64,000 bases of DNA from a bacterium. Its GTDB lineage: Bacteria > Orphanbacterota > Orphanbacteria > Orphanbacterales > Orphanbacteraceae. The stretch lies in assembly GCA_025782575.1 (NCBI GenBank), contig JALGYY010000017.1, forward strand, positions 609,892-673,891, read 5' to 3'. A program made the position numbers and the translations under genes. Below the pieces are notes generated by a model. The model did no database searches, was not told the origin of the DNA, and saw nothing but the letters and a program-made list of their open reading frames with translations. Below are positions 5,237-51,504 of the stretch, piece after piece (the first letter of the stretch is position 1; the number at the start of each line of letters is the position of its first letter).

Positions 5237-5313
5237 CCCACCGTACTCACGCCGGCGATTCCGTTCACGTTGTCATCCGGCCGTTGAATTTTACATTAGG
5301 TGGTAACTTCTAG

Positions 5314-5339
5314 GGGGCTGTCCGGTGACGTATGCGTTT
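5314..5339 (+). repeat. Terminal inverted repeat, gene-3' end of copy A
   Basis: Begins GGGGCTGTCCGG, then TGACGTATGCGTTT. It pairs with the inverted copy at 6860-6885 with one mismatch. Confidence 0.85.
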
Positions 5340-5392
5340 CACTCCCGATCCACTTGAACCGCCTCTCGTTATCCGTCCTACTCCCCCGTCCC

Positions 5393-6559
5393 TCAACGTT
5401 TCGTCAGCAACATCTCCCGCGCCGCCAAACGATTGTGTTTGCCGCACAGGATGCGCAGATTCTCGAGGGAGTGCTCCCCTCCCCGGCAATACGGCGTGAT
5501 GTGATCGATCTGCAGGTGAGCGGTCGAGTCGCATCGGATGCCGAGGGAACTGGTGTAGGTGCAGCGCCCTTTGTCGCGGTTGAATACCGCGTCCCGCAGC
5601 TGGGCCGGAATGTGCCGGGAACGAACGGGCAGCCCCTCTGCTCCCTCGCCTGTAGACTCTATCTCATCGGCTGTTCTTGAGCCGCTCACGGCCGCTGGTT
5701 TGACCGGGGAATTGCCCTTCCCCAGTCTCTGCGCCTGGCTCTCTGACTTGCTCTGTTTCCTGACCTTTCTCTTCTTCCTCCGCACCTCTTTCCGTTCGGG
5801 GTCCCGCTTCTCCAGCAGGTCTTTGATTGCTCTCCCTATGATCGCTTCCAGATTCCAACTACGGGAGCAGACCCTCTTCGCCCGCTCCAGATCCCGGCAG
5901 AACTCCTCGCTCGCCGAGAATCGGATTTCGTAGCGATGTTCCAGTTTCTTATTCGGGCTATCGATTGGAGAGTTGCCCCCCAGCTGATCAGTCTGATCAT
6001 CCACAAGATTACTATCAATTTGATAGTTCTCAAGTGTTCGATTCGGCTGAAAAAGATCCTCGTGATCGGCACTTCGATCCCGCCCGACCGCCGGTTCCTG
6101 CAGTCCGATCGGCCGGATCGACTCCCGGGTCTTCGGTGCGATCTTCAGCGAGGCGACGATTTTTTCGATCTCCACGAATCTCTTTCCCGAAACTTCCTGA
6201 AGGATCTTGTCGGAGTTCTTACTCGTCAGGATTCCGGCGATTCTGGAGACGCCGCAGAGTGTAATCTTGCGCCGCGCAAGCAAATCCCGCACATCTGGAA
6301 AGTTCTTCATACATCGGGCAGCCGCGATGAACCGCCCCGCTTTGGGGGGTGAGTAGTGCCATCTCCGCGTGCAGTAGTCGAACAGGGAGGAGTACCCTTC
6401 CTTTAAGAATATCGATCGCCCCTCGATCTCGACCAGACAGTCGAGAATTTCAATGGAGAGCTCATGTCGGCTCTGAACCGCACGATCCCCTTTCTGAATG
6501 ATCTCATGATTGGAAAGCTTTGCCAGAGCCGAGTCCATCTTCTTCGTCGTCATCGCCAT
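5393..6559 (-). CDS. HNH endonuclease, 13E12/DUF222-like, in element copy A
   Basis: About 388 residues. The start at 6559 (MAMTTKK) is preferred because AGGAGG lies 8 bases upstream; an ATG at 6583 in frame lacks one. The N-terminal ~150 residues (KEGYSSLFDYCTRRW...PKAGRFIAAARC...ITLCGVSRIAGIL) resemble the helical region of mycobacterial REP13E12/DUF222 proteins. A low-complexity charged linker follows, rich in K, R and E. The C-terminus is a full HNH domain: LQIDHITPYCRGG, SLENLRILC and CGKHNRL supply the H-N-H triad, with cysteines at CTYTS, RCDS and LCGKH for zinc. About 60% identical in the HNH part to the protein at 50213-51433 but much less elsewhere. A DNA-cutting role is inferred from family; no partner gene is nearby. 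Confidence 0.82.
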   Translation of the reverse strand: MAMTTKKMDSALAKLSNHEIIQKGDRAVQSRHELSIEILDCLVEIEGRSIFLKEGYSSLFDYCTRRWHYSPPKAGRFIAAARCMKNFPDVRDLLARRKITLCGVSRIAGILTSKNSDKILQEVSGKRFVEIEKIVASLKIAPKTRESIRPIGLQEPAVGRDRSADHEDLFQPNRTLENYQIDSNLVDDQTDQLGGNSPIDSPNKKLEHRYEIRFSASEEFCRDLERAKRVCSRSWNLEAIIGRAIKDLLEKRDPERKEVRRKKRKVRKQSKSESQAQRLGKGNSPVKPAAVSGSRTADEIESTGEGAEGLPVRSRHIPAQLRDAVFNRDKGRCTYTSSLGIRCDSTAHLQIDHITPYCRGGEHSLENLRILCGKHNRLAAREMLLTKR

Positions 6560-6733
6560 CTTCTTCCCCTCCTGTCCACTCATCTCGTTCCAAGCCCCAC
6601 CGATATCTTAGCATGCCCTTTTCCGGCTTCGAGAGAGGCCTGACAAACGAAGCCGCCAGTGATTTCCCAAAAAAGAAAGGGGAGATTGCTGCCAATTGAT
6701 TCCTGGACAAGAGAGGTCTTCTGATAGGAGTCT

Positions 6734-6783
6734 GGAGAGGCATCTGCGCTAATGAAAACTGGCGAGGCCCGAAACGTGTCAAG
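6734..6783 (-). promoter_or_regulatory. Conserved leader motifs of HNH element, copy A
   Basis: Read on the minus strand, CTTGACACGTTTCGGGC (6767-6783) is followed by GCAGATGCCTCTCC (6734-6747). Both recur in the leader of copy B (CTTGACACGTTTTGGGC and the identical second motif). The first contains TTGACA and could be a -35 box; no clear -10 is seen. The remaining leader between 6584 and 6858 has no gene. Confidence 0.6.
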
Positions 6784-6858
6784 CAATATTTCTTGAAATC
6801 GATAGAAAAGTTAAATTGATTGAAATACACGGCCGAACTACGGATCGGTGCCGCCAGG

Positions 6859-6885
6859 AAAACGCATACGTCTCCGGACAGCCCC
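6859..6885 (-). repeat. Terminal inverted repeat, gene-5' end of copy A
   Basis: On the minus strand it reads GGGGCTGTCCGG, then AGACGTATGCGTTTT, and continues into CCTGGCG (6852-6858). The same CCTGGCG extension occurs at the gene-3' end of copy B (51471-51477). Confidence 0.85.
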
Positions 6886-6966
6886 ACTTCTCGACCGCCA
6901 TTTCGGCAGTGGAAACTGGTCTGTTTTCTTCAGTAGACCAACTCTTTGACCGGACCGCTCGACCAG

Positions 6967-49918: not shown

Positions 49919-49944
49919 GGGACTGCCCGGCGACGTAAGCGCTT
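49919..49944 (+). repeat. Terminal inverted repeat, gene-5' end of copy B
   Basis: GGGACTGCCCGG, then CGACGTAAGCGCTT. Similar to both ends of copy A. Confidence 0.7.
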
Positions 49945-50212: not shown

Positions 50213-51433
50213 ATGACCATGAACAAGGCGGAACTGTCCTCCCTAACCAACCAACAGCTGGTCAATTCAATCGAGAAGTCAGCACGCCAGGAGCGATCGA
50301 ACACAACTGAGATCCTCGACAAGCTCGCCGAGATGGATCGACGTAAAATTCATCTCGAACTAGGATTCCGATCACTCCACAGCTACTGCGTCTCAAGGCT
50401 TCGCTACTCAGAATCCGCAGCAGGAAGACGAATCTGCACAGCACGGGCCATTGTCAAGTGTCCTGAGATTCGCGAGATGATCTCCGACGGCAGGCTCAAC
50501 CTCAGTACGGTGTGTGTTCTTTCAAGCGTCTTGAATCAGGAAAACAGATTGGACTTGTTGAAGCAGGCATCAGGAAAATCGCGGCGGGAAGTGGAGGCGA
50601 TGGTCGGGCGCATGAAGCCAAGGAAGAAGATGCGTGAACGGATCACCCCAGTAACGATTGAAGAAATTTCACCAGAGCAGGCGGACCATACAGAACCGTC
50701 CCGCTTTGCAAGCCTCGATGACCTTCCCGATTTCCCCGAAGATAGTACCAATTCGAACAAGTGCAAGAATATTAACCTCCGCCGCGGCGGTAAAATTCCG
50801 ACCACTCCTACGTCGCAGGAAAGCCCGGCCGATCTCCGCCAGGATCGATTCGAACTGCGATTCTCTGTGAAACAGGAAAAAATGATCATGCTTGAGAGAG
50901 CAAGGAAGATTGCTCCGGGAAGTTCTACTCTTGAATCTGTTTTCGGCAGGATGCTCCGCGAGTATCTCGAACGACACGATCCGGCAATGAAGCAGGAAAG
51001 AAGAGAGAAACGAAAAGAGCGGGCATTAAAAAGGAATGAGACGGCAAGATCCTGTGAACCGAAGGGGGAGCCCGGAAGAGACGGTGTGACCGGTTCGAGT
51101 GAGGTGGCAGACAAATCACGAAACTCGAATTGCAACCCGCCCCGGGAGTCCCGTTCCCGCCACATTCCGACACCTCTCCGTGATGAAGTCCTTCTCCGCG
51201 ACGGACATCGATGCACATTCGTATCACCGGACGGCACACGATGCGATGCAACCCGCCACCTGCAGATCGATCACATCACTCCCTTTGCTCTCGGCGGACA
51301 ACACGAAGCAGGAAACCTGCGGCTTCTCTGCGGACCCCACAACCGGCTGGAAGCGGAGAGGATAGGACTCATCCCACCCGAGCAAAGGGTCGAATGGTTG
51401 CTACAGGTCATGAACAGTCGCTGCAGGTCATGA
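50213..51433 (+). CDS. HNH endonuclease, 13E12/DUF222-like, in element copy B
   Basis: 406 residues; the ATG at 50213 (or the one at 50219) follows AAGGGG. N-terminal helical region (LELGFRSLHSYCVSRLRYSESAAGRR) matches the copy A protein in pattern. The central linker is charged (EKRKERALKRNE). The C-terminal HNH domain shows HLQIDHITPFALGG, EAGNLRLLCGPHNRL and cysteines CTFVS, RCDA and LCGPH for zinc. About 60% identical to copy A in this domain. Likely cuts DNA; target and role are unknown. Confidence 0.85.
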   Translation: MTMNKAELSSLTNQQLVNSIEKSARQERSNTTEILDKLAEMDRRKIHLELGFRSLHSYCVSRLRYSESAAGRRICTARAIVKCPEIREMISDGRLNLSTVCVLSSVLNQENRLDLLKQASGKSRREVEAMVGRMKPRKKMRERITPVTIEEISPEQADHTEPSRFASLDDLPDFPEDSTNSNKCKNINLRRGGKIPTTPTSQESPADLRQDRFELRFSVKQEKMIMLERARKIAPGSSTLESVFGRMLREYLERHDPAMKQERREKRKERALKRNETARSCEPKGEPGRDGVTGSSEVADKSRNSNCNPPRESRSRHIPTPLRDEVLLRDGHRCTFVSPDGTRCDATRHLQIDHITPFALGGQHEAGNLRLLCGPHNRLEAERIGLIPPEQRVEWLLQVMNSRCRS

Positions 51434-51477
51434 TCGGTAGCCGGGGGTTACAGCTGCCATTTGTGAACTGCGCCAGG

Positions 51478-51504
51478 GATACGCCTCCGTCTCCGACAGT
51501 CCCC
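51478..51504 (-). repeat. Terminal inverted repeat, gene-3' end of copy B
   Basis: On the minus strand GGGGACTGTCGGAGACG, then GAGGCGTAT, then CCTGGCG (51471-51477) as at the 5' end of copy A. One base shorter than the other ends in the core. Confidence 0.65.

Follow-up and report, generated by a model that had tools for sequence, protein, structure and literature searches.

An HNH endonuclease gene between 26-bp inverted repeats forms an insertion element that prefers sibling HNH genes as its target

The window, i.e., the entire 64-kb stretch of DNA that was analyzed, corresponds to C2:609892–673891 of a 4.88-Mb assembly of 49 contigs from a candidate-phylum bacterium. It contains a unit of approximately 1.57 kb, referred to as window copy A, in which a 26-bp terminal inverted repeat is followed by one HNH gene and a second repeat. 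The unit is flanked by relics of another HNH gene, of a second subfamily called B. The features of window copy A and its flanks are as follows.

5260–5305, minus strand: left flank, remnant of the linker of a B-type HNH gene (aligns, together with 6886–6926, to the B gene B_C46)
5306–5313, no strand: target-site duplication, left copy ACTTCTAG (7/8 identical to the right copy; from the empty-site comparison)
5314–5339, plus strand: L end, terminal inverted repeat on the 3' side of the gene (25/26 identical to the other end; kept in genomic copies)
5393–6583, minus strand: HNH endonuclease gene of subfamily A, 396 amino acids (open reading frame; Pfam HNH; dN/dS 0.23)
5405–5626, minus strand: HNH domain, residues ~320–393 (Pfam PF01844; model pLDDT ~90)
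5948–6094, minus strand: disordered linker, residues 164–212 (pLDDT < 50)
6146–6526, minus strand: helical N-terminal domain, DUF222-like, residues ~20–146 (fold weakly similar to the DNA-binding domains of ParB/Noc)
6860–6885, minus strand: R end, terminal inverted repeat on the 5' side of the gene (matches the other end and genomic copies)
6886–6893, no strand: target-site duplication, right copy ACTTCTCG (the empty site of the L075 B gene, from another genus, reads the same)
6894–6926, minus strand: B linker relic including the palindrome ACCGCCATTTCGGCAGT (from alignment to B genes)

Positions 5314–5339 and the reverse complement of 6860–6885 are identical at 25 of 26 positions, as had been read from the sequence in the original prediction, and no second inverted pair of 26-mers up to 4 kb apart reaches this value in the entire 64-kb window. 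The ends of A-type elements are denoted GGGGCTGTCCGG, and their tip reads GGGGCTGTCC. The original prediction further placed a 6-base repeat, ACTTCT, just outside both ends. A repeat is indeed present there, but an 8-bp target duplication (ACTTCTAG/ACTTCTCG) describes it better; the 6-base version leaves AG unexplained on one side.

When the window flanks were joined and one 8-bp copy was removed, the resulting 88 bp aligned continuously to the linker of B_C46 (gene nt 501–587). The flank alignment scored above 60 shuffles. The B gene of another genus (L075) has the intact site GGTGGTA-ACTTCTCG-ACCGCC and contains GGTGGTAACTTCTCGACCGCCATTTCGGC, which is the empty site of the window, only the left copy of the duplication being altered by one base. 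Since this intact site reads as the right copy, it is the left copy that carries the substitution. Empty sites, one of the two checks named in the original prediction, were found in the form of intact B genes. The suggested search for target duplications around further copies gave a mixed outcome: 8 bp (7/8) at the window copy, the only one with both duplication copies, and no clean duplication at the other four two-ended copies. Two of these (C2:906471 and C20:134348) lie in a second type of B gene, where a different palindrome was partly or wholly lost and no duplication is present; at C2:719738, a deletion adjoins the insertion, and at C44:62214 no duplication was seen.

The host genome contains about 30 related A-type loci, many of them truncated by contig ends. 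Allowing up to three mismatches, the 26-mer end occurs 22 times in this genome, compared with zero for a reversed control. Outside HNH loci, a 17-base end query yielded just two-mismatch matches, at control level, and an end without an intact adjoining HNH gene (C17:111507) leads to relics only. In the host genome, the ends therefore accompany HNH genes only, rather than being scattered singly. No A-type end was detected in six relatives from the same family at up to three mismatches, apart from two chance-like matches, nor in 385 other genomes at two mismatches, nor in viral contigs. Copy-to-copy identity inside the 26-bp ends is 82–93% (87% between L and R ends), whereas identity in the adjoining DNA is 36–51% among ends of one type and 32% when L and R ends are compared. 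The A genes differ between copies by dS ≥ 0.27, with a dN/dS of about 0.23, i.e., they are under purifying selection. The conservation of the ends despite this divergence implies that they are maintained by selection or by repeated movement. A possible hairpin at the ends was dismissed, as one apparent covarying pair failed across copies and no pairing is conserved across ends.

One way to account for such a family is that its repeats are ancient palindromes with a regulatory or terminator role and that segmental duplication together with gene conversion multiplied the genes, in the manner reported for REP13E12 of Mycobacterium tuberculosis, whose paralogues undergo frequent gene conversion (PMC13061034). 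We consider this very improbable: copies lie between unrelated flanks with boundaries that are sharp at the repeats, the ends match each other and have no conserved hairpin pairing, and the empty site aligns across the junction. Taken as a discrete, repeated, and mobile unit with the HNH gene as its only product, the element is well supported, in line with the original prediction.

What the original prediction missed is that the linker of the second HNH subfamily is a recurrent target. In blastx searches, the flanks of A copies match subfamily B, which is 35% identical to A. The copy at C2:719738–721290, for example, splits a B gene: its N-terminal half (amino acids 5–180) lies to one side and its C-terminal half, starting at amino acid 236, to the other, both read in the same direction. 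When 80-nt flanks were aligned and compared with a shuffle control, at least 10 A insertions were placed in B linkers, at about nt 490–605, and approximately half of the traceable A copies lie inside this single region of distantly related sister HNH genes. The hot spot corresponds to the part of the linker that matches A residues 164–212. Insertion points were found at B nt 491, 514–517, 534/542, 561–579, and 602, in both orientations. Some same-orientation copies could share one event, so the distinct site/orientation classes indicate about seven events, where close to none would be expected; even for 7 such classes among 18, the binomial chance is ~2e-19 (assuming 20 linkers, each 120 nt long). 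The one-sided junctions C44:1084, C46:292734, and C2:359 were found at B nt 535 or 542 (CAGGAAGT), as were the L side of C2:721290 and, in the orientation opposite to the other copies there, both sides of the window copy. Several copies together define the 8-bp duplication. Hence, A is a real insertion element with a strong target preference for sibling HNH genes. A general preference for hairpins outside B linkers was considered and rejected: among the remaining sites, a hairpin is present at C46:159980 and C44:62214 only, and most sites lack one.

The recurrence inside related B genes could also be read as homing, in which the HNH protein cuts B genes and homologous repair from an occupied B gene copies the element, the inverted ends being incidental. 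HNH homing endonucleases are an established class and share with A an HNH nuclease gene at recurrent sites. However, A is present at several sites with differing insertion points and in two orientations, it is accompanied by an 8-bp target duplication, and its 26-bp inverted ends are conserved although homing does not need them; this reading is accordingly disfavored, and we regard it as improbable.

The window also contains a B-type copy, referred to as window copy B, with the following features.

49919–49944, plus strand: 5' end of window copy B (21/26 identical to the A-end consensus)
50213–51433, plus strand: HNH gene of subfamily B, 406 amino acids (35% identical to A; DUF222 22.3 bits)
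50775–50791, plus strand: linker palindrome ACCTCCGCCGCGGCGGT of copy B
51479–51504, minus strand: 3' end of window copy B (18/26 identical to the A-end consensus)

B linkers contain palindromes of the type GACCGCCGAAATGGCGGTC or resembling ACCTCCGCC-GCGGAGGT. In the host genome, GACCGCCGAAATGGCGGTC is found in B genes and their relics only. This 19-bp palindrome is identical at 19 of 19 positions in another genus, although identity over the coding sequence is 64%. The A junctions at B nt 535/542 and 514–517 coincide with its two feet. In the model, two strands enclose this region, which forms a loop of pLDDT below 50; conservation for the sake of protein folding is therefore unlikely. The palindrome may be conserved at the DNA level or at the protein level, e.g., through a role of the peptide DRRNGG. 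One pair shows a compensatory change, and 141 of 500 shuffles did equally well. The A-like gene of a sister genus (L077 3700–3800) has another linker palindrome, ACACCCAAAATGGGTGT; linker palindromes may be general in this HNH family. We also observed degenerate tandem repeats of ~18–20 nt and variable number (e.g., GGTCATGAACGGTC.., GTGATCCATGAGGTCCT..) 3' of the HNH gene in copies of the B2 type and from Krumholzibacteriota, at these locations downstream of the HNH gene:

L058 3100–3320, degenerate tandem repeats
window 51380–51460, degenerate tandem repeats
L133–L147, degenerate tandem repeats

The A genes are themselves targets. An insertion sequence (IS) of the IS1182 family, whose first 50 residues are 46% identical to an annotated IS1182 transposase, occupies one site, CACG^TTGG, in the linkers of several A genes and in both orientations:

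C44:201, C31:30433, C47:17598, C26:90, C22:35483, C16:9533, C2:996749, and C42:189586, IS1182-family IS in A-gene linkers

This amounts to layered parasitism, with IS1182 copies in A-gene linkers and A elements in B-gene linkers. Its apparent target duplication is about 3 bp long (CGT). It is represented by its ends only, its body being missing from the assembly. As a separate observation, a 16-nt stretch of the B2 linker (GCGGAGGTAAATTTCT) is found again close to the 3' end of this IS (L074 3500–3545; L065 linker).

These data bear on the possibility that A is a mobile insertion cassette with the ends of a DDE-type IS, moved by a transposase acting in trans, the HNH gene being either a passenger or an accessory gene that promotes spread. 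DDE transposases typically leave inverted ends together with 8-bp duplications, and A has both. Moreover, its end tip GGGGCTGTCC resembles GAGGCTGTCC, the tip of the IS1182-family IS of the host genome. Mobile insertion cassettes (MICs) are defined as inverted-repeat-bracketed units with a target duplication and no transposase (PMC3913671), and palindrome-preferring IS elements are known (PMC1525189). On the other hand, no non-HNH element with A-type ends was found in the assembly, in which repeated elements are under-assembled, and searches of the assembly for transposases of the PF01609 (DDE_Tnp_1) and PF00872 (IS256-type) families gave no match. A helper transposase could be hidden, because bodies of repeated elements are missing, as with the IS1182-type IS. 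The apparent duplication of about 3 bp made by that IS does not fit the 8 bp seen here, the ends remain with HNH genes across two subfamilies, and the supposed passenger gene is under purifying selection. We consider a cassette of this type a serious possibility, if a less than probable one. RAYT/REP as the mover was examined and set aside: there are four Y1_Tnp genes, and the REP of one adjoins B copies, but RAYT loci lack A-type ends. The REP-like palindrome in question, GGGGACACAATACTTAATT, flanks the RAYT (Y1_Tnp) gene at L089 (C5:52257) and also lies beside the B copies C46:95597, C11:108540, and C20:5877.

Searches against Pfam, NCBIfam, and PHROGs revealed no recognized transposase in window copy A, only the HNH protein, whose HNH domain scores above the Pfam cut-off; a recognizable transposase is likewise missing from all other copies of the element. 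Among the aligned relatives, HNH was detected in 16/16 and DUF222 (PF02720) in 8/16; window A alone gave no DUF222 match, and window B reached 22.3 bits against a cut-off of 24.4. A search of named genomes with the single protein gave no match, whereas a profile search did find relatives, and those with names identify the family as Candidatus Eisenbacteria. The helical N-terminal domain was modeled with a pLDDT of 90, and its only coherent fold matches are the DNA-binding domains of ParB, Noc, and Spo0J; with TM about 0.5 and E-values of 0.5–4, these matches are suggestive but not significant. The HNH domain resembles those of McrA, Gme nickase, and Cas9, and the NCBIfam IscB score is 27 bits against a cut-off of 175.

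The reading that we tentatively prefer is that the A element moves by means of its own DUF222-like/HNH protein. The palindromic target, the element ends, or both would be bound by the N-terminal domain, and a cut or nick made by the HNH domain, staggered by 8 bp, would fall at the foot of the palindrome in the target. Joining of the ends would be supplied by the A protein itself, by host repair, or by a helper transposase. The preference for the linkers of diverged siblings would follow from recognition of the palindrome conserved there, and insertion into B linkers would inactivate rival family members and leave host genes unharmed. Several observations point in this direction: the ends are tied to HNH genes in the host genome and lacking in the 385 other genomes; related ends are found on window copy B despite 35% amino acid identity; the ends are far better conserved than adjacent DNA, next to a gene with a dN/dS of 0.23; an empty site could be reconstructed and insertion is specific for B linkers; and DDE_Tnp_1 and IS256-type transposases were not detected, while the protein shows weak fold matches to ParB, Noc, and Spo0J, which bind palindromes. 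Against movement by the A protein speak that strand transfer by HNH nucleases is not known, that the ends and the 8-bp duplication look like the work of a DDE enzyme, that only the window copy has both copies of the duplication, and that comparable HNH families of Krumholzibacteriota reach several copies without such inverted ends. A DDE transposase acting in trans is nearly as likely as movement by the A protein. A stronger version, which we consider doubtful, is that the DUF222-like/HNH nuclease replaces the transposase in a new class of transposable elements, recognizing its own 26-bp ends and the linker palindrome of its rivals, making an 8-bp staggered cut, and knocking out competitors.

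Among openly accessible papers, our literature search found none on an HNH-only element bounded by terminal inverted repeats or on insertion into sibling HNH genes. The likeness to REP13E12 noted in the original prediction is apt at the protein level (DUF222-like plus HNH). Both are multicopy genes for a helical domain plus a C-terminal HNH domain, the helical domain of A being DUF222-like (DUF222 was detected in 8 of 16 relatives but not in window A alone), and both host another element, phiRv1 being located inside REP13E12 (PMC9317374), which has been described as being without a defined function (PMC13061034). Unlike REP13E12, A has 26-bp inverted ends and an 8-bp duplication, and no recombinase was found. 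With cassettes of the MIC231 type, A shares a non-transposase gene bracketed by inverted repeats and a target duplication; it differs in that no IS with matching ends was found and that its gene encodes a nuclease, is conserved, and is the sole cargo seen. ISPsy8, ISPa11, and ISPpu9/10 insert into REP palindromes, much as A inserts beside a repeated palindrome, but these elements encode transposases, whereas the target palindrome of A lies in a coding linker of its siblings. IS200/IS605 elements bearing IscB or TnpB provide a precedent for an HNH nuclease (IscB) on a mobile element, and A is weakly similar to the IscB/Cas9 HNH domain; however, A lacks RuvC and a conserved end hairpin and has inverted ends instead of subterminal hairpins.

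DUF222-HNH genes are repeats in many genomes, including that of M. tuberculosis. In one lineage, their mobility becomes testable, since the ends are sharp, the target is defined, the duplication measures 8 bp, and an empty site has been verified. If true, the reading in which the nuclease replaces a transposase merits testing for DUF222-HNH repeats in other phyla, REP13E12 included. A multicopy HNH family without A-like inverted ends was observed in the Krumholzibacteriota genome CSMAG_2137 (G042, L212–L217). Its 5' boundary, CGGATGATCCTGAAAATATC, follows either of two repeated upstream sequences, one of which is a terminator-like hairpin.
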